From positions 1-64,000 of the forward strand of contig JAUYVI010000002.1 in the NCBI GenBank assembly GCA_030715195.1: 64,000 nucleotides of DNA, written 5' to 3'. Source of the stretch: Dongia sedimenti (lineage in GTDB: Bacteria > Pseudomonadota > Alphaproteobacteria > Dongiales > Dongiaceae). Shown piece by piece: positions 1,961 through 10,343 of the stretch; position 1 is the stretch's first letter, and every line of letters begins with the position of its first letter. Both the position numbers and the translations under genes were made by a program. The notes below the pieces were generated by a model. The model saw nothing but the letters and a program-made list of their open reading frames with translations, was not told the DNA's origin and searched no databases.

Positions 1961-3130
1961 CTACATCAGCCGCTGCGCCGCCCATTTGTGGAAGCAGTGG
2001 GTCGGCACGTCCATGACCGGCGAGAAGACGCCGCCGTCGAAGGCCGGCGAGGCGCGGCCGCGCTGCATGCGCTCGACCACGCCGACATCCTCGGAGAACA
2101 CCTGCTTCCAGGCGCGCAGGTTGGCCGAGCGGATCTGGGCATAGTTGTCGTCCAGGGCCGCGTCGCCGACATAGTAGAGCTCGAGATGCTCGAGCGTGTG
2201 GTCGACGCCGATCGGCTCCAGCCGCACCGCCATGAAATGGTCCTGGTGGACCCCGAGCAGTAGGTTGGGAAACAGCGCCGCATATTCGGCCCCGCCGCGG
2301 AACTGGGTCGGCAGGCCGGGGAAGTTGGGCAGCGCCTCGCCGGTATCGGTCAGGCTCGGCCGATAGACCCGGCTGCCCTGCCCGGCGAAGGAATCCCATT
2401 CGTTGATGTTGTAGTGGTCCTCGAGCCGCGAATAGGAGTTCAGCGCGGGATGCACCCAGGGGAGATGATAGGCCTCGCAGTAATTCTCGACCGCGAGCTT
2501 CCAGTTGCAGTGCACGTCGAAAGTGGCCGAGGAGTCGGGGCCGGAATGGCGGATTAGGCTTCCGTCGAACATCGACCAGCGCTCGGCCAGGGGCGCGATA
2601 TAAGCCGCGAAATCCGGCGCTTGGCCGCTGACATTCACAAACACCATGTCGAACCAGACGGCGGTGCGCACGGGGCGCAAACCGTGCGCCGACTTGTCGA
2701 AACCATCGCAGCGGTTGACGTTCGGCCCGCCGATGAACGGCGTCGCTTTTAGTTTACCTTCAAGGTCATAGGCCCAGGAGTGATACGGGCACCGCAGGAC
2801 TGCGCCGACATGGCACGGCTCGGACACCAGCTCGGCGCCGCGATGGCTGCAGACATTGTGGAAGACCCGGATCTCGTTCTTGGTATCACGCACCAGGATG
2901 AGCGGCAGGCCCAGCAGATTGCGGGGCATGACATCGCCGGGCCGGGCCACGTCCTTGCCGAAGCCGATACAGGCCCAGCCCGCTTCGTAGAGCCGCGCCC
3001 GCTCGAAGGCCAGGAACTCAGGATCGACATAGCACGGGTTGGGCAGCGCCTTGGCGGCCGCGGTCTCGCTCAGGACGGTGGAGAGCCGGTCCCGGAAGGC
3101 CGCGCTGGTGAATGCCGAAAGGTCGCCCAT
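1961..3130 (-). CDS. Rieske non-heme iron oxygenase, alpha subunit
   Basis: A 389-residue aromatic-ring-hydroxylating/demethylating dioxygenase large subunit. The Rieske [2Fe-2S] ligands are visible as C94-x-H96 and C114-x2-H117. The mononuclear iron site is seen in NWKLAVENYCEAYHLPWVHP, with H222 and H227, and a later DVGVVERMQ segment matches the family's third ligand region. This subgroup includes choline-monooxygenase-like and glycine-betaine or stachydrine demethylases. The start at 3130 follows GAGG six bases upstream; an upstream GTG at 3232 is less likely. A reductase partner is not seen nearby. It lies 88 bp downstream of a PAS gene and the TfuA gene on the same strand, so it may be in that transcript. 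Alternatively it serves methylamine metabolism like the genes at 10.5-21 kb. Confidence 0.85.
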   Translation of the reverse strand: MGDLSAFTSAAFRDRLSTVLSETAAAKALPNPCYVDPEFLAFERARLYEAGWACIGFGKDVARPGDVMPRNLLGLPLILVRDTKNEIRVFHNVCSHRGAELVSEPCHVGAVLRCPYHSWAYDLEGKLKATPFIGGPNVNRCDGFDKSAHGLRPVRTAVWFDMVFVNVSGQAPDFAAYIAPLAERWSMFDGSLIRHSGPDSSATFDVHCNWKLAVENYCEAYHLPWVHPALNSYSRLEDHYNINEWDSFAGQGSRVYRPSLTDTGEALPNFPGLPTQFRGGAEYAALFPNLLLGVHQDHFMAVRLEPIGVDHTLEHLELYYVGDAALDDNYAQIRSANLRAWKQVFSEDVGVVERMQRGRASPAFDGGVFSPVMDVPTHCFHKWAAQRLM

Positions 3131-3218
3131 GATCTGCCTCGCGTTGGTCGTTGGGTCGGTCGGTCGATCATGACCAGTGTCTCCCCTTACCGGGGTGCCG
3201 TCTGGCCGTCCTGCGACG

Positions 3219-3911
3219 TCAGGATGGCGCACCGAGATAAGGCCTGGGCGAAACGTAGTCTTCGAGCCCGATGAAATGGGTCACCGCCTCGCCATCGTCC
3301 GACAGCGGGCAGATCACCCATTCAAAGCTGTTGGCACCGAGGCGCAGCTGCGTCCCTTCCGTCCGGCCGAAGACCGGTGCGCGGGTCCGGATCACCGTCC
3401 GGTAGAGGTCGAGTGTCCGCTCGACATCGGCCTCGTCCTTGTAGAGGTCCGTGAGCCACTTGCCGCGGATCTCGAAACCGAGTGCTCCGACCAGCTCGGT
3501 GCCGGCGATCCGGTAAAAGATGCGGTCCGGGTTGGCGTGCCACTCGTTCATGAAGACGTTCTTCAAGAGCGGCCAGATCAGGGTCGGATCGATGTCCTTC
3601 CGCCGCGGCATGGCACGCCCGGCGCGGATCTCGTGCCAGTAATCGAGCAGGCGCCGTACCTTTTCGGACCGGCATTCATCCGGTGCGATGAAGTTGTAGC
3701 GCCCGGCCTTCTGGTTGCCGAGCGATGCCGACAGATCCGATTCCAAACTGCGTTCGTCCCCCACGCGGGCGGTGCCGCGGCGGCCAAGCGCCGGTTTCCC
3801 GGCGCCTCTCAACCGGCGGATAGGATAATGCACCCGCACCGATGTCGCCACTGTGGCACGGGCGCACGGCTCGAAATCAGACCGGCTTCTCGCCGAGACC
3901 GGGCACATCAT
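3219..3911 (-). CDS. PAS_5-domain protein, copy 1
   Basis: A PAS-type sensor-domain protein of the PAS_5 family. The conserved part begins near CRSEKVRRLLDYW and contains MPRRKDIDP, NEWHANPDRIFYRIAGTEL and a C-terminal FEWVICPLSDDG...FIGLEDYVS block, all shared with the two paralogues at 6689-7255 and 7521-8156. No output domain is present, so it may work by binding a partner. The start is uncertain: the ATG pair at 3911 has GAGG nine bases upstream but overlaps the end of the TfuA gene by 35 bp, and the first 60 residues are not conserved in the paralogues. It probably shares a transcript with TfuA. Confidence 0.8.
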   Translation of the reverse strand: MMCPVSARSRSDFEPCARATVATSVRVHYPIRRLRGAGKPALGRRGTARVGDERSLESDLSASLGNQKAGRYNFIAPDECRSEKVRRLLDYWHEIRAGRAMPRRKDIDPTLIWPLLKNVFMNEWHANPDRIFYRIAGTELVGALGFEIRGKWLTDLYKDEADVERTLDLYRTVIRTRAPVFGRTEGTQLRLGANSFEWVICPLSDDGEAVTHFIGLEDYVSPRPYLGAPS

Positions 3912-4623
3912 CGAGCCGGTCCTCGAACTGATGAACCCAGTGAACCGTGCGGGGAAAGTCCCAGTCGGGCTTGGCGTCCGGACGGCGCGGCGCGCTCAGC
4001 CATTCCAGCAGCCGCTTGCCGTCATCGCCTTTCGCATCCCGCCGAAGCGCCGTGTAGCTTTCCCAAACCGTCGCCGCGCGGGCCGGCGACATCTGCGCGG
4101 CGATCGCGGCACGGATGTGGTCGAGCGTCCGCTCCGAGAAGTGCATGGCCTTGAGTGCGGCGGCGACCGCCGTCTCCTCGGCCTTCGTGATGCCGCCGCG
4201 GTGCCGCAGATCGCGCAGCGTGTAGCGGATGCTGATCATCGGCTCCGAGAGCGGCATGAAATCCAGCTCCTCGATCGCATGGGTGACGCAGACCTCGTCG
4301 TCATCGGCGATCGCGGCACGGTGGTACAGCCGGTAGATATTGCCGATCCCGCGCATGCCGTAAGGGGCAAGTTCCGCCGCCCGCAGCGCGCCGGTGCTGG
4401 CGGCGCCCACCACCTCGGTCCCCTGGGCGATCACGAACATGATCTCCTTGTGCCAGACCGATGGCGTGTTGCCGAAGAATCCGTCGATGATGCCGATCCG
4501 GCGATAGCCCTGCTGGAAGGCGCGATAGACCGAGCCGAGCGCCGCGGGCGGGAAAAAATCGATTCGCGGATAAGACTTCTTCGGCACCCGAGTCGGCCCG
4601 ACGAAAACACAAGACTCGTTCAC
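3877..4623 (-). CDS. TfuA-like RiPP maturation protein
   Basis: A 248-residue TfuA-core protein. Recognisable family blocks are VFVGPT (6-11), IDGFFGNTPSVWHKEI (46-61), the strongly conserved GAASTGALRAAEL (73-85) and YGMRGIGNIYRLY (88-100), followed by a DDDEV segment. TfuA proteins act with YcaO enzymes; in thioamide-forming systems they are thought to assist sulfur delivery. The start is a GTG at 4623 with GGGAG seven bases upstream. It reads away from the precursor gene and YcaO, sharing a 355-bp intergenic region with them. No adenylation or sulfurtransferase partner was seen in the window. Confidence 0.9.
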   Translation of the reverse strand: MNESCVFVGPTRVPKKSYPRIDFFPPAALGSVYRAFQQGYRRIGIIDGFFGNTPSVWHKEIMFVIAQGTEVVGAASTGALRAAELAPYGMRGIGNIYRLYHRAAIADDDEVCVTHAIEELDFMPLSEPMISIRYTLRDLRHRGGITKAEETAVAAALKAMHFSERTLDHIRAAIAAQMSPARAATVWESYTALRRDAKGDDGKRLLEWLSAPRRPDAKPDWDFPRTVHWVHQFEDRLDDVPGLGEKPV

Positions 4624-4978
4624 GACTCGCTCCCGCCCACGGCTTCCCTCCTATGATTTTTCGCAATCTGACACGGCGTGAGCGTGAGCGGCGAGCGTCA
4701 ATCGACAGCCCCGGCACTGGCATGGCGCGTGCGATCAGGAGCGCAAGCCTAGTGCCCGGCTGGCGATCCCAGCGCATGCACAAGCGCCCCTTGAAGTTGG
4801 GAGCTTGCTGCCACCAAAGGAACTAATGCCCAACAAGGTCAGGGCGTTAAGACCTGCAACCTGAAGGCGCATAGGTGAGAACTCGTATTGCGAGGCGTTG
4901 TGGCTCCGCTGTATGGTTAAGTGTCCGTTAAGCTTAACCATGCGTGTTTACCAAGCGTTAACGTTGGAGGGTGGGATT
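4624..4978. other. divergent intergenic region between TfuA and precursor gene
   Basis: A gene-free stretch of 355 bp that must hold promoters for both the leftward TfuA operon and the rightward precursor-ycaO operon. The right end (4910-4965) is notably AT-rich for this genome, with four TTAA tetramers within about 50 bases, described separately. No clear sigma-70 -35/-10 pair could be chosen by eye. Confidence 0.6.
4913..4941 (+). promoter_or_regulatory. CtrA-like box and inverted repeat upstream of the precursor gene
   Basis: TTAA (4917-4920), seven bases, TTAA (4928-4931) matches the TTAA-N7-TTAA binding pattern of the alphaproteobacterial cell-cycle regulator CtrA. The same segment is framed by a perfect inverted repeat, ATGGTTAA (4913-4920) and TTAACCAT (4934-4941). 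Another TTAA lies in a CGTTAACG palindrome near 4957. All are 20-65 bp upstream of the precursor ATG. Binding is inferred from pattern only. Confidence 0.5.
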
Positions 4979-5416
4979 ATGCGTTCATTAGAAGAACTGC
5001 TGCACTCGCGGCAGAAAGCTGGCATTGCGATTCATCGGGCGCTTCAAGGCCTCAGCGCCTCGGCGGCGCGTGACGATGACGAACGGGCCGCGGTTTCGGT
5101 GTTCGCCCGTGACGATGACGAGCGCGCGGCGCTTTCCGTCTTCGCACGCGACGACGATGAGCGCGCGGCGGTCTCGGTCTTCGCCCGTGACGATGACGAA
5201 CGCGCGGCGCTTTCCGTCTTCGCCCGCGACGACGACGAGCGTGCGGCGGTCTCGGTGTTCGCCCGTGACGATGACGAGCGTGCGGCGGTTGCCGTGTTCG
5301 CCCGTGACGATGACGAGCGTGCGGCGGTCTCGGTGTTCGCCCGCGACGATGACGAGCGTGCGGCGATCTCGGTTTTCGCACGCAGCGACGACGAACGCGC
5401 GGCGATCGCGCACTAA
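4979..5416 (+). CDS. repeat-containing RiPP precursor peptide (YcaO/TfuA substrate candidate)
   Basis: Encodes 145 residues: a 29-residue leader (MRSLEELLHSRQKAGIAIHR...) and eight 13-residue repeats of the form ARDDDERAAVSVF, then a ninth, 12-residue, variant ending ERAAIAH. Repeat 10th positions vary only V/L/I, the 11th is Ser except Ala in repeat 6, and repeat 9 starts ARSDDE. There is no cysteine or threonine anywhere. The start at 4979 has GGAGG eight bases upstream; in-frame ATGs further up (4898, 4940) lack this. The stop is 20 bp before the ycaO start. Adjacent YcaO and TfuA genes make a multi-core RiPP precursor the best reading. A structural or metal-binding acidic repeat protein is the alternative. 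Product structure and activity cannot be read from sequence. Confidence 0.85.
   Translation: MRSLEELLHSRQKAGIAIHRALQGLSASAARDDDERAAVSVFARDDDERAALSVFARDDDERAAVSVFARDDDERAALSVFARDDDERAAVSVFARDDDERAAVAVFARDDDERAAVSVFARDDDERAAISVFARSDDERAAIAH
5066..5413 (+). repeat. nine tandem 39-bp repeats encoding 13-residue cores
   Basis: Units start at 5066 and recur every 39 bp: eight full units to 5377 and a 36-bp terminal unit. Units differ at many third codon positions (for example GCG/GCC/GCA, CGT/CGC, GAC/GAT, GAA/GAG) while the encoded residues barely change, which is the pattern expected if the peptide sequence is under selection and not just freshly duplicated. Confidence 0.95.
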
Positions 5417-5436
5417 GCGTTCGGTCGCGTTTTGCC

Positions 5437-6678
5437 GTGACCGACTCTACGGTTGATCTCGGCGGAACGGTGCGTGCCCGTTCCGCCGAAGATACCCTCG
5501 CCCGGATCAAGCCTCGGATCCAAGAATACGGGATCACCCGGGTGGCGAGTGTTACCGGGCTTGACGTACTGGGCGTGCCGGTCTGGATGGCGGTTCGGCC
5601 CATGGCCCGATCGCTGACCGTCTCCCAAGGCAAGGGTATCAGTGACTCCCTCGCCTATATCTCCGCCGTCATGGAAAGCATCGAGATGCACCATGCCGAG
5701 CACTGGGACGCCACCGGCCCCGAGGTTTCGCTCGGCGAGGCGTTCCAGGATGCGCGCTTCGCCTCCCCGGCCGCCCTCTCCCTGCGCTCCGACGCCAAGG
5801 TCACCGATGCGACGACGGTCGCCTGGGTGGAAGGCCGCGACCTGGTCAGCGGCGAGGCCAGGTATCTTCCCAAGGAATTGCTCGATCTCGACTTCCGCAT
5901 GAAGCGCGGTCGTGCGCCGATCTTCCTGTCGTCATCGAACGGGCTCGCCTCGGGCAATACCCGGACCGAGGCGGTCGTGCATGGCCTCTGCGAGGTAATC
6001 GAGCGGGACCAGAGCTGCCTCTGGCAGATCGAGCAGAGTCTCGCCGGCGATCCCAGGGCGCGGATGGTGAAGCTCGAGACCATCGAGGATCCGATCTGCC
6101 GCCAGCAGATTGAGACCTGTCGCCGCGCCAATCTCGATGTCTGGGTGTGGTACTGCACCTATGACATCGACGTACCGGTCTTTGCCTGCACCATCGCCGA
6201 TCGCGGCAATGCGACCTTCTATCCGCAGCGCGCCTCCGGATATGGCTGCCACCCGGTCGCCACCGTCGCGCTCTCGCGCGCCATCACCGAAGCGATCCAG
6301 AGCCGGCTCACGCATATCTCCGGCGTCCGCGACGACGTGACCTGGGAGCGCTACCGCAACGATATCAGCACCACCGACCGCAGCAATCTGGTGGCGTTCG
6401 AGGCGATGGCGAAGATGCAGCCCGCTCTCTCGTTCCACGATATTCCGATCGCGCGGCCGCCCGCCACGATGGAGGCGATGCTGGACGAGATGCTGGAGAA
6501 GCTGAGGTCGGTCGAGCTCACCCAGGCGATCGTGGTCGACCTGCCGTCGCGGATGGACGACTTCGCCTTCGTCTTCGTCTGCGTGCCGGGGCTTGAGTTC
6601 GCCGCGAACAAGCCGAACTACACGCCCGGCGCGCGGATGCTGAATTTCTTGTCCCGGCTGAAGAAGAAAGCCGCCTAA
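5437..6678 (+). CDS. YcaO-domain peptide-modifying enzyme
   Basis: A 413-residue YcaO protein. YcaO enzymes use ATP to activate backbone amides, making azolines, amidines or, with TfuA, thioamides. Visible signatures are the ATP/Mg segment with S76, E80 and E83 (SAVMESIE), the NGLASGNTRTEA block (168-179) and CEVIERD (185-191). The C-terminus lacks the proline-rich tail of cyclodehydratase-type YcaOs, and no fused E1-like (C) domain or separate one is nearby, which fits the stand-alone, TfuA-dependent type. The start is a GTG at 5437 without a clear ribosome binding site, 20 bp after the precursor stop, suggesting translational coupling. It converges on a PAS_5 gene. Confidence 0.93.
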   Translation: MTDSTVDLGGTVRARSAEDTLARIKPRIQEYGITRVASVTGLDVLGVPVWMAVRPMARSLTVSQGKGISDSLAYISAVMESIEMHHAEHWDATGPEVSLGEAFQDARFASPAALSLRSDAKVTDATTVAWVEGRDLVSGEARYLPKELLDLDFRMKRGRAPIFLSSSNGLASGNTRTEAVVHGLCEVIERDQSCLWQIEQSLAGDPRARMVKLETIEDPICRQQIETCRRANLDVWVWYCTYDIDVPVFACTIADRGNATFYPQRASGYGCHPVATVALSRAITEAIQSRLTHISGVRDDVTWERYRNDISTTDRSNLVAFEAMAKMQPALSFHDIPIARPPATMEAMLDEMLEKLRSVELTQAIVVDLPSRMDDFAFVFVCVPGLEFAANKPNYTPGARMLNFLSRLKKKAA

Positions 6679-6688
6679 GGGCCGGCGC

Positions 6689-7255
6689 CTATTGCGCGTA
6701 GCCGCCGAGATAGCGGCGGGTCGAGACGTAGTCTTCGAGCCCGAAGAAATGCGTGACCGTCTTGCCGTCGTCGGAGAGCGGGCAGAGCACCCATTCGAAG
6801 AACTCGACGCCTAGGCGCAACGTGCTGCTGTCGGTGCGGCCGAAGATCGGCACCCGCGTCGCGATCACCCGATAGTAGAGGTTCATGACCTGCTCGAGAT
6901 CGGGCTCGTTGGGGGTGATCTCGTGCAGCCAGCGGCCACGGAACTCCTGGCCCGCCGTCGCGACCAGCTCGGTGCCGGCGATGCGAAAGAAAACGCCATC
7001 GGGTTTGCTGTGCCACTCGCTCAGGTGCAGGTAAGGCAGCAACGACCAGATGTCGACCGGGTCGATGTCCTGGCGACGCGGCATCAGGCGATCACCGCGA
7101 ATCCGAGTCCAATAATCGTAGAGGCCGCGCACGCGCGACGACGTGCATTCGCTCGGCGAAATGATGACATCATTCCCGAACGACCGCTCCGCTCCAAGAT
7201 CTGGAAGCCGCCTAGAAATCGAACTGCTCCTTAGGCCGGGCTGTTCTGGAGACAC
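6689..7255 (-). CDS. PAS_5-domain protein, copy 2
   Basis: About 188 residues, PAS_5 family, with MPRRQDIDPVDIWSLLPYL, SEWHSKPDGVFFRIAGTEL and the C-terminal FFGLEDYVSTRRYLG block shared with copies 1 and 3. No other domain is present. The chosen start is a GTG at 7255 preceded by GAGAGG at good spacing; the frame stays open to 7369 but only with a TTG start there. The stop lies ten bases from the converging ycaO stop. Likely a small soluble sensor or adaptor; ligand unknown. Confidence 0.8.
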   Translation of the reverse strand: MSPEQPGLRSSSISRRLPDLGAERSFGNDVIISPSECTSSRVRGLYDYWTRIRGDRLMPRRQDIDPVDIWSLLPYLHLSEWHSKPDGVFFRIAGTELVATAGQEFRGRWLHEITPNEPDLEQVMNLYYRVIATRVPIFGRTDSSTLRLGVEFFEWVLCPLSDDGKTVTHFFGLEDYVSTRRYLGGYAQ

Positions 7256-7520
7256 GCCCAGCCTCTCACCATCACCATCGTGATATGACACCGGAATGCC
7301 GATTGCCCGCAAGGGTCGGAATGTCCCTGGAGCGCCACTTGGCGGCGCGATGAGGGCAGTTAACACCAATGGGTAAGTTCAAAGCGCTTCGGCTTCAACA
7401 TTCTCCACAAGCTCCTCCACAGGAAGGCGGCGTTGGGCGTGCAAATGACAAACTTGCCGCGTCTATACCCAAAATGCGGGGAACCATTGAGACCAATTCA
7501 ATCGGTCATGCCGAACGCTT

Positions 7521-8156
7521 TCAACTTCCGGCACCCAGATAACGTTTATTAGACACGTAATCCTCGAGACCGATGAAATGCGTAATGCGGTGGCCGTCCT
7601 CGGAAAGCGGGCAGAGGATCCATTCGAAGGAATCGACACCGAGCCTCTGCATGCTGCCGAGCGTGCGGCCTATGATCGGCGCACGAAGCGCGATGACCTG
7701 ACGATAGAGCGCCATGGTCTCGTCGACATCCTTGGGATCGGTATGAAAATCGGTCAACCAATGACCGCTGATCTCCCGCCCGATCGAAGCCACGATCTCG
7801 GTGCCGGCGACGCGATAGCGCACGCGATCCGGATTTTGGTGCCACTCGCTGACATGAATGTTCGGTAGCAGCGACCAGATCTCGACGGCATCGATATCGC
7901 GCCGCGCGGGCATGGCCCGCGTACCGCGCAGTGCATGCCAATAGTCGTGAAGACGCTGTACCTTCTCCGAGGTGCATTCGGCGCGGGTGAGGATGATGTC
8001 GCGCCAGAAGCTTTCCGGCTCATCGCCTCCGAGCGTGATTCTGATATCCGTGTTCAAGCTTTCGGGACCCCGTCGGCGCACACCCTGGCGCGCGCCTCGC
8101 GCCGTCCCCGCCTTGCTTCGCGCATAGTGCAGTGTGCGAGCTTGAACGCTGGCCAT
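7521..8156 (-). CDS. PAS_5-domain protein, copy 3
   Basis: About 211 residues if started at the ATG at 8156; the frame is open to a GTG at 8252. The PAS_5 part starts around CTSEKVQRLHDYW and keeps MPARRDIDAVEIWSLLPNI, EWHQNPDRVRYRVAGTEI and FIGLEDYVSNKRYLG. The N-terminal 60 residues are arginine-rich and not conserved in the paralogues, so the true start may be further inside. It has its own upstream space of over 140 bp before the EF-G-like gene end at 8301 and probably its own promoter. Confidence 0.78.
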   Translation of the reverse strand: MASVQARTLHYARSKAGTARGARQGVRRRGPESLNTDIRITLGGDEPESFWRDIILTRAECTSEKVQRLHDYWHALRGTRAMPARRDIDAVEIWSLLPNIHVSEWHQNPDRVRYRVAGTEIVASIGREISGHWLTDFHTDPKDVDETMALYRQVIALRAPIIGRTLGSMQRLGVDSFEWILCPLSEDGHRITHFIGLEDYVSNKRYLGAGS

Positions 8157-8300
8157 ATCGGGACGCGCCGATATGCCATTGAACCAATCCGGCCGCAAGG
8201 CCGCGAACGCCGCAGATCCGCCAAAAACGCCGGGAATCAGCGGCAAATACACCTAAATCGCCGCGTCGGACCCCGCCGTGGGCCCGGCTTCGGCTTGCCT

Positions 8301-10343
8301 TCAATGCGCGGCCGCCGCCTGGCGCTGCTCGACCACCTTGTCGGCCAGCCGTCCGGTCAGTTCCTGCAGATGATCGAAACGGTAGGCGAAGTTGCCGACG
8401 CCCAGGGTCAGCGACCGCAGCTCGATGATCATGTCGTGGAGCTCGGATTGCGGCAGCAGCGCCTCGACCATGTCCCAGCCGGGCCAGCCGTCCTTGGCGC
8501 CGAAATTGAGGATCTGCCCGCGCCGCCCGGTGATCAGGTTGTGGCAGCGCGCGGTGAACTCGTTTGGCGCCGCCACTTCGACCGCATAGATGGGCTCCAG
8601 CAGGACCGGGTTGCATTTCGGCATCGCCTCCTGCATCGCCATGCGGGCCGCCGTCTTGAATGCCATGTCGGAGCTATCCACCGAATGGTACTGCCCGTCG
8701 AACAGCGCCGCCGCGACATCGACCACCGGAAAACCAAGCGGCCCGCGCACCAGATAGTCGCGAATGCCCTCCTCCACCGAACCGATGAAGGTGCGCGGCA
8801 CCGAGCCGCCGACCACACGGTCATGGAACTCGAATCCCGTGCCGCGCTGCACCGGCCAGATTTCGACATGGACATCGGCGAACTGGCCGTGCCCACCCGA
8901 CTGCCGCTTGAAGCGCGCATGCTGTTTCAGCTGACCGCGTATCGTCTCGCGATAGCTGATCGACGGCCGGCGATGCTTGACCGGCAGATTGAAGCGGTTC
9001 TTCAGCCGGTCGAAGGCGATGTTCAAATGCACCTCGCCCTGGCCGTAGAGCAGCAGTTCGTGGGTATCGGGATCATGGCCGAAGCTGAGCGAGGGATCGT
9101 CTTCGCAGAGCTTGGCCAAGGCCGCCGTCAGCTTCACCTCGTCGTTGCGGTTCTCGACATCGATCGCGAGCGCAAAGAGCGGTCGCAACGGGTCCGGCCA
9201 CTTGTAGCCGGACGGCGTCTTGCCGCTCGCGGTCAAGACATCGCCGGTCTTCGCCTGCTCGAGCCGGCCCAGCGCCACCACCTCGCCGGGATTGCCGGCC
9301 GGCACCTTCTCGCCGGCATGCCCCTTCATCTTCAGGACGCCGGCGATACGCTGGCCGTTGAGCGTCGCACCGTCGGCGATCTTGCCGCCGAAGATGCGTG
9401 CCAGCGAGAGCTTGCCGGAATGCTGCTGGTTGCTGGTCTTGAAGATGACCGCGCTCGCATCCTTGCCGTCGAGGCCGAGCCTTTTTGCCACGACCTCCGG
9501 GCCGGGCACGTCGTGGCGTAGCGCCTTCAGCAGGCGATGCACGCCGGCATCCTTCTCCGCCGCACCCAGCATGACCGGCACGATCAGATCGTCGGCCAGA
9601 TCCTTGCTGAGCAGTTGATAGATCTCCTCCTTGGGCGGAACCGCGTCGGAGAGGAGCTCCTCCATCAAGTGGTCGTCGAAATCGGCGAGCTTCTCCAGCA
9701 TCGCCGTGCGGGCCTCCTGCTCGCGCGGCAGGATTTCCTCCGGCATCTTGATCAGGTCGGATTCCTGTCCCGGATGATACTTGTAGGCACGCTCGCTGAT
9801 GAGGTCGACATAGCCGGTCACATCATCGCCGTCCTTGCCGGGAACCCGGATCGGCACCTGGCGCAGGACCAGCGGCCGGCTCGAGACCGCTTGGAGTGCC
9901 TCCAGGATCTCGCGCACGGTGTGCTCCGCCTGGTCCATCTTGTTGATGAACAGGATGTGCGGGATCTGGTTGTCGTCGAGAAACTTGAAAAGAGGCCCCA
10001 GGGTCAGTGCCTTGTCCACGACCGGCTCGGCCACGACCACGGCGACGTCGCAGACAAGGAGCGCGTTGCGCGCCTCCTGCGCCAGCTCGACCGAGCCGGG
10101 GCAATCGATGAAGGTCCAGGTCTCGCCGAGATAATCGGCGCTCGCGGTGCTCATCTCGACCGACATCTTGCGCGCCTTGGCCTCCGGCGAGCTGTCGCTC
10201 ACCGTGGTGCCTTCCTTGGCGTTGCCTTTGCGCGAGATGGCGCCCGTCGCGAACAACAGGCTTTCGAGAAGGGCCGTCTTACCGCTGAGATAGGGTCCAA
10301 CAAGAGCGGCGCAGCGAGGCGCCGCAGGTGCTCTGCCCGGCAT
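8301..10343 (-). CDS. elongation factor G-like translational GTPase
   Basis: A 680-residue EF-G family protein, nearly full EF-G length. The GTPase motifs are present but non-canonical: G1 GPYLSGKT where EF-G has AHIDAGKT, G3 DCPG instead of DTPG, and G4 NKMD. Domain II, III, IV and V segments follow, including GGHGQFADV of domain IV (EF-G has GGRGQYGHV). The divergence and the absence of neighbouring rpsL/rpsG/tuf genes mean this is the EF-G-like paralogue seen in many alphaproteobacteria, not the main fusA. Start ATG at 10343 follows GGAGG six bases upstream. Its specific ribosomal role is unknown. Confidence 0.9.
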   Translation of the reverse strand: MPGRAPAAPRCAALVGPYLSGKTALLESLLFATGAISRKGNAKEGTTVSDSSPEAKARKMSVEMSTASADYLGETWTFIDCPGSVELAQEARNALLVCDVAVVVAEPVVDKALTLGPLFKFLDDNQIPHILFINKMDQAEHTVREILEALQAVSSRPLVLRQVPIRVPGKDGDDVTGYVDLISERAYKYHPGQESDLIKMPEEILPREQEARTAMLEKLADFDDHLMEELLSDAVPPKEEIYQLLSKDLADDLIVPVMLGAAEKDAGVHRLLKALRHDVPGPEVVAKRLGLDGKDASAVIFKTSNQQHSGKLSLARIFGGKIADGATLNGQRIAGVLKMKGHAGEKVPAGNPGEVVALGRLEQAKTGDVLTASGKTPSGYKWPDPLRPLFALAIDVENRNDEVKLTAALAKLCEDDPSLSFGHDPDTHELLLYGQGEVHLNIAFDRLKNRFNLPVKHRRPSISYRETIRGQLKQHARFKRQSGGHGQFADVHVEIWPVQRGTGFEFHDRVVGGSVPRTFIGSVEEGIRDYLVRGPLGFPVVDVAAALFDGQYHSVDSSDMAFKTAARMAMQEAMPKCNPVLLEPIYAVEVAAPNEFTARCHNLITGRRGQILNFGAKDGWPGWDMVEALLPQSELHDMIIELRSLTLGVGNFAYRFDHLQELTGRLADKVVEQRQAAAAH

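Follow-up and report, generated by a model that had tools for sequence, protein, structure and literature searches.

What do the YcaO and TfuA enzymes encoded close to the start of a Dongia sedimenti contig act upon? The window analysed here is the whole stretch of 64,000 nucleotides (NCBI GenBank assembly GCA_030715195.1, contig JAUYVI010000002.1, positions 1 to 64,000 of the forward strand), and in it the gene for a 145-residue repeat protein ends 20 bp ahead of the ycaO start, with tfuA, a gene named for trifolitoxin, divergent from the repeat gene across an intergenic gap of 355 bp. As judged from sequence, the repeat protein is probably the multi-core precursor of a ribosomally synthesised and post-translationally modified peptide (RiPP): its units would be thioamidated by YcaO with sulfur provided by TfuA, and would then be cut after the Arg or Lys that precedes each of them.

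The repeat array and its relatives

Tandem Repeats Finder resolves the array with a period of 39, 8.6 copies and 84% matches. The preliminary description of the locus had counted nine 13-residue repeats; the array is real, but the ninth repeat is truncated, which leaves eight full units followed by SDDERAAIAH. The coordinates, the 145 residues, the 20-bp spacing and the divergent tfuA of that description were all borne out by a check of the open reading frames (ORFs) and the sequence. The unit register DDDERAAVSVFAR appears to fit better than the one chosen originally, because every unit is then preceded by a basic residue (R in 33/38 cases and K in 5/38, short units included). As judged by its codons and its relatives, the repeat ORF is confirmed as a real gene rather than a chance one. 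Among the nine 39-base stretches, the ninth of which takes in the stop codon, the codon differences are 152 synonymous versus 62 non-synonymous in the precursor frame; one reverse frame is nearly as synonymous (150 versus 78), so the reading frame is settled by the relatives and not by the codon count.

Two protein searches yielded eight such relatives (P0001–P0004 and P0125–P0128), all of which share the leader (MRSLEELLHSRQKAGIAIHRALQGLSASAAR in the window, ahead of the units) and the unit, in 3–4 copies; across the precursors the copy number ranges from 3 to 9 and the unit length is kept. For P0003 and P0004 the start had been placed at an ATG further upstream, and since the corresponding window codons fall on the promoter block described below, we took position 4979 as the start. 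No variation is seen at D2, D3, E4, R5, F11, A12 and R13 in the 29 full units of nine precursors. At position 7 the residue (A, S, C or I) depends on the lineage; all full units of any one precursor agree there, P0126 deviating in its short last unit, and such uniformity would be expected if arrays are homogenised within a lineage. AlphaFold2, run on nine sequences, places a helix at leader residues 4–27 (block means of 75, 80 and 56 over residues 1–30), and the predicted local distance difference test score (pLDDT) is nowhere above 50 from residue 28 onward, which is consistent with a flexible core.

Two of the relatives may share a contig with a YcaO gene. P0127 is encoded on a contig of 24086 bases and P0126 on one of 9287; for the YcaO relatives P0033 and P0046 (83% and 73% identical to the window YcaO, respectively) the longest contig has exactly these sizes, in the same order. 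That the contigs of precursor and YcaO relative are equally long suggests, without proof, that P0127/P0033 and P0126/P0046 each share one contig. A pattern search of genome contigs for the precursor returned 201 matches and no confirmed relative, although a low-complexity filter may hide some.

An array of this kind might also be modified and left uncut, the whole protein being a thioamidated acidic repeat polymer. The variation in copy number at constant unit length would suit such a polymer, as would the surroundings of the cassette: among the scanned neighbours no peptidase or transporter gene adjoins it, an absence already reported in the preliminary description and upheld by our profile scan. 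YcaO enzymes can, furthermore, modify whole proteins such as McrA and uL16, as stated in the accessible part of PMC13063428. We nevertheless consider an uncut polymer unlikely: the Arg or Lys ahead of 38/38 units looks like a processing site, the array lacks a confident AlphaFold2 fold, and thiovarsolins are set free although their cluster encodes no protease, as described in the available portion of PMC6511847.

The YcaO and TfuA enzymes

Both enzymes contain full-length domains, with YcaO matching PF02624 (237 bits, 3.6e-70, profile positions 1–325 of 325) and TfuA matching PF07812 (141 bits, 1.5e-41, profile positions 1–119 of 119). The top specific NCBIfam matches are to the YcaO–TfuA pair that thioamidates the McrA glycine in methanogens: TIGR03266 for YcaO (190.5 bits, under the cut-off of 365) and NF033432 for TfuA (158.7 bits, under the cut-off of 235.2). 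The general family TIGR00702 is matched by YcaO above its cut-off, likewise with 190.5 bits. Because the two specific matches fall under the curated cut-offs, YcaO and TfuA look thioamide-linked but not equivalogs of the McrA enzymes; and while the McrA pair modifies an enzyme subunit, the window pair has a repeat peptide encoded next door. Sequence relatives with solved structures include MJ1094 (6pe3) for YcaO and 6xp8 for TfuA (E-value 4.8e-26). As for a thioamidated RiPP of the YcaO–TfuA type, ycaO and tfuA adjoin a short leader–core precursor gene, here with tfuA divergent.

Could YcaO form oxazolines or another heterocycle at a conserved Ser, rather than thioamides? Position 9 is Ser in 27/29 full units, the YcaO matches the SagD family with 116 bits (under the cut-off of 219), and the part of PMC9670871 available to us describes a trifolitoxin producer as making azol(in)e-modified peptides. 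However, the other two full units have Ala at this position, and Ser is missing from it in all nine short last units. The McrA thioamidation profile TIGR03266 outscores SagD, the YcaO C-terminus lacks PxPxP, and among the scanned neighbours there is neither an E1-like or ocin-ThiF partner of the linear azol(in)e type nor a dehydrogenase of the kind found in azol(in)e clusters. Heterocycle formation seems to us distinctly improbable, and thioamidation is the chemistry that we prefer.

YcaO–TfuA loci elsewhere

The comparison set comprised 104 loci. In 385 genomes of the class, 15 (the Dongia genome included) have a YcaO at an E-value of 1e-60 or better, giving 15 other loci; a genome-contig scan with a YcaO alignment gave at least 558 confirmed relatives, from which the top 80 were retained; and the window’s own bacterial family, in which 8/17 genomes have TfuA, contributed nine further loci. 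At least two locus pairs in the set are the same record twice (L011/L032 and L012/L065). In 104/104 loci tfuA lies downstream of ycaO and on the same strand, its match starting 0–517 bp after the YcaO match.

The two closest YcaO loci among the 80 kept are those of a Burkholderiaceae metagenome-assembled genome (MAG; L023, 48% identity) and a Betaproteobacteria MAG (L024, 46%). Their upstream ORFs have non-repeating tails and a helix-like stretch that resembles the window leader (EVLDLLKKRQKAGQQISKLLKKQG versus SLEELLHSRQKAGIAIHRALQGL). A profile of the leader aligns with these ORFs at 47% identity over 19 residues; hhalign gives an E-value of 2.7e-4 with a probability of only 41%, and a score of 21.9, where the highest of 60 column shuffles reached 15.5. 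By this comparison the window leader appears detectably related to the L023 and L024 leaders.

A tandem-repeat ORF lies upstream of YcaO in 12/104 loci, with units that differ from that of the window (for example DDSQRHAANFIGTTP, DADAGRWAISP, (A/S)DYDAGRMAIEA, FASSW and RSARQCVEPT). To pass the screen an internal repeat had to beat all 200 shuffles; 13 loci passed, L040 was dropped by eye as low-complexity, and three of the remaining 12 (L015, L077 and L086) are close relatives with two copies only. A YcaO tree of 118 rows shows what appear to be several gains or losses of tandem cores beside YcaO–TfuA, since 11 changes of the repeat label are required and at least six are forced by the starred branches; the tree is a quick one with some long branches, and it counts as non-repeat 11 database proteins whose context is unknown. 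The window YcaO falls together with its near relatives from metagenomes, next to a set from beta-proteobacteria; the group of 16 has a support of 100.

That the repeat gene is a bystander (e.g. for a structural repeat protein) and YcaO–TfuA modifies another protein is very improbable, since against a sub-threshold Pfam match to the beta-solenoid family RDM3_C (30 bits, cut-off 35) and the low-confidence AlphaFold2 strands in the array stand the close spacing of precursor and ycaO, the equally long contigs that tie P0126 and P0127 to the same YcaO type, the leader relation to L023 and L024, and the short or repeat ORFs ahead of YcaO in many other loci.

Other upstream ORFs in the set deserve mention in their own right. 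In Azospirillum and relatives (L010, L026, L027, L028, L031, L037, L049, L064, L074 and L080) short ORFs precede ycaO–tfuA, with IRGADGRL(Y/F)(A/S)V... and ...DHEAGRxxITPGA-like ends; a DGxLYxV segment, possibly a shared leader, is seen again ahead of YcaO in further loci. Homology of the DDDER unit to the DxxAGRxxIT cores of these Azospirillum-type precursors was rejected by a hidden Markov model (HMM) shuffle test, in which, of seven units, only the L147 unit came near (12/1000 shuffles). Striking upstream repeat ORFs are also found at L070, L016, L013 and L082 (a Kiloniellales MAG, two genomes of the class and an Anaerolineae MAG). The window genome has a second ycaO–tfuA pair (L144, G000:C1:535000-547000), with an upstream 121-residue non-repeat ORF and no CtrA-like site.

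A CtrA-like promoter block

Three sites that resemble those of the cell-cycle and motility regulator CtrA start 45–66 bp ahead of the precursor ATG (Table 1). The accessible parts of PMC6180460 and PMC3692519 give TTAA-N7-TTAA(C) and TTAACCAT as CtrA sites; the window contains TTAA-N7-TTAA once (mean of 0.05 expected) and TTAACCAT twice (mean of 0.25 expected). Two repeat precursors of a sister genus (L145 and L147) have a CtrA-like block about 72 bp upstream and that of L146 is degenerate, while the other six own-family loci have neither site. General CtrA control of YcaO–TfuA loci was rejected: neither TTAACCAT nor TTAA-N7-TTAA occurs in 95 loci, searched up to 1.2 kb ahead of YcaO (109 kb in total). 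Among the loci searched, the CtrA-like block is limited to the window’s bacterial family.

A search of four genomes gave a single ctrA match over the curated cut-off in each, and because all four of these genes carry both site types upstream (TTAA-N7-TTAA between −179 and −234, ATGGTTAA at −57 or −58), their sequences suggest that CtrA-like sites are used in this family. Genome-wide counts speak against the assignment, the full site being weakly or not enriched: TTAA-N7-TTAAC occurs 18, 16, 17 and 21 times in the four genomes versus 10, 15, 14 and 9 times in the reversed control. Six further places in the window’s own genome are, by eye, not ahead of obvious flagellar genes. Weighing these sequence features together, we consider it likely that the precursor is under CtrA.

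Genomic setting

Pfam calls at the cassette flanks are PAS_5 genes, a Rieske oxygenase and an EF-G-like gene; an HlyD-type gene lies 14 kb from the cassette. The three flanking PAS_5 paralogues are 52–56% identical to one another and the genome has 35 PAS_5 matches; the one next to tfuA also matches MopJ, a motility and cell-cycle regulator, with 55 bits (under the cut-off of 200). The EF-G-like gene is found in 17/17 genomes of the family, and beside it no ycaO, tfuA or precursor is present in 10 fetched neighbourhoods from the 16 other family genomes (at most 10 kb each, two of the 10 shortened by contig ends). The cassette looks acquired or lineage-specific.

An ORF at 506–1954 (482 aa) has no Pfam match and a weak cystathionine-lyase-like match (E-value 0.049); a role for it as sulfur donor is unsupported, since the stretches fetched for the 104 loci contain no match to it. 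No RNA family scores above its gathering threshold at 3000–9000, PADLOC gave no match, and the PHROGs matches of the repeat protein are weak and all to families of unknown function.

Table 1. Features of the repeat-precursor cassette and its flanks (positions in the window)
Feature	Position	Strand	Remarks
PAS_5 ORF	3219–3911	−	Listed start overlapped 35 bp by the tfuA 3' end
tfuA	3877–4623	−	Divergent from precursor gene; PF07812 match
CtrA-like half site TTAACCAT (ATGGTTAA on +)	4913–4920	−	
CtrA-like full site TTAA-N7-TTAAC	4916–4931	−	+ strand TTAA-N7-TTAA at 4917–4931
CtrA-like half site TTAACCAT	4934–4941	+	
GGAGGG, ribosome-binding-site-like	4966–4971	+	7 bp ahead of precursor ATG
Repeat-core precursor, 145 aa (candidate)	ATG 4979 to stop 5416	+	
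Leader, residues 1–31	4979–5071	+	Conserved in 8 relatives
Eight full units DDDERAA(V/L/I)(S/A)VFAR	5072–5383	+	
Truncated ninth unit SDDERAAIAH	5384–5413	+	
ycaO, 413 aa	GTG 5437 to stop 6678	+	PF02624 match
PAS_5 paralogues	6689–7369, 7521–8252		With the 3219–3911 ORF, flank the cassette

Discussion

The preliminary description had proposed a RiPP precursor served by YcaO–TfuA, and this proposal gains support from the leader and unit shared by the relatives, the leader relation to L023 and L024, and the repeat ORFs beside YcaO elsewhere. Conservation of the repeat protein in genomes without ycaO and tfuA, which that description took as evidence to the contrary, was not seen among the relatives, of which P0126 and P0127 are linked to a YcaO by equal contig sizes only and the other 6/8 lack known context. 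Several observations weigh against our interpretation. A leader-only HMM search of 4,227 small ORFs put the L023 ORF first, but with an E-value of 0.21, and did not list L024. At an E-value of 1e-3 the precursor is found in 0/16 other genomes of the bacterial family, and in the comparison of the window unit with the Azospirillum-type cores 676/1000 shuffles score as well. The window tfuA is divergent, unlike that of all 104 comparison loci, and Ser9 is kept more strictly than side-chain-blind thioamidation needs.

How might the system work? CtrA would bind the predicted block and switch on the precursor–ycaO operon, possibly together with tfuA; the leader helix would dock the precursor on the YcaO–TfuA pair; and, in line with the reactions known for both enzyme families, YcaO would activate a backbone amide with ATP and TfuA would supply sulfide. 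TfuA is described in the accessible part of PMC13063428 as a hydrolase that, with thiocarboxylated ThiS-like carriers, passes sulfide to the substrate of thioamide-forming YcaO. Because a protease or exporter gene is not adjacent, we invoke housekeeping proteases, which may release the units as proposed for thiovarsolins. Our guess is that the modified residue lies within the variable unit positions 6–10, between the invariant R5 and F11.

A close described likeness is that of the thiovarsolins (varA–varY–varT, Streptomyces varsoviensis), where, in the available portion of PMC6511847, a repeat precursor and YcaO–TfuA yield small thioamidated peptides; thioamides absorb near 270 nm according to the same paper. 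As at the window cassette, repeating cores follow one leader, copy number varies between relatives and the cluster has no protease. The thiovarsolin unit, however, is APR-centred in that account whereas the window has an acidic 13-mer (no APR or GPR tripeptide occurs in the 145 residues), the leaders differ, and the heme oxygenase-like, ATP-grasp ligase, MFS transporter and amidinotransferase genes described for the var cluster are absent from the scanned neighbours of the window cassette. The std cluster, in which YcaO–TfuA thioamidates Asn, likewise acts on a short precursor motif; it differs in having one SNKEWQE motif, an MNIO with its partner and a peptidase–carbamoyltransferase, none of which is seen at the window locus (accessible part of PMC13174530). 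The window cassette also belongs to the pool of proteobacterial TfuA-related clusters from global mining, where 70% of the unique TfuA-related clusters are proteobacterial; words that start with ‘repeat’, ‘Azospirillum’ or ‘Rhodospirill’ do not occur in the accessible main text of that report (PMC8120280).

Within the bacterial family, the three loci of genus g3 (L145–L147) resemble the window in having a repeat ORF ahead of ycaO–tfuA, and L145 and L147 share the CtrA-like block; they differ in their leader, in Cys-bearing units, in a YcaO that is 36–38% identical and in a downstream tfuA. L145 (G011) and L147 (G008) have about 8–9 single-Cys units of the RSARQC(V/T)EPT type; ahead of these, L145 has several DDRNARAIT units and L147 has one. 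L146 (G009) has a shorter QSRQCAR array.

Is this, then, an unrecognised RiPP class, as the preliminary description suggested? Our literature search, outside which most subscription journals and supplements lie, found no report of this 13-residue unit, nor any that joins YcaO with Azospirillum and a precursor peptide, or thioamide, YcaO, tandem repeat and RiPP. A new class is nevertheless too strong a term, because thiovarsolins already show repeating cores without a dedicated protease.

Few YcaO–TfuA products are known, PMC13174530 counting four classes before its own in the part accessible to us. To these the locus would add a minimal three-gene multi-core system with a testable unit, leader and predicted masses. 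For DDDERAAVSVFAR the calculated [M+H]+ is 1450.692, which one thioamide would raise to 1466.669 and one azoline would lower to 1432.682. CtrA control would point to a peptide used in signalling or competition and linked to the cell cycle or motility; the papers found for CtrA together with YcaO have titles on cell-cycle modelling or simulation methods. More tentatively, and with doubt prevailing over confidence, the CtrA circuit may drive a multi-core thioamidated peptide in swarmer or late-cycle cells, where it would be a signal or weapon connected with the cell cycle or motility, one family keeping the promoter while swapping the leader, the unit and the YcaO lineage. The CtrA-like promoter would in that case offer a handle on the timing of peptide production.

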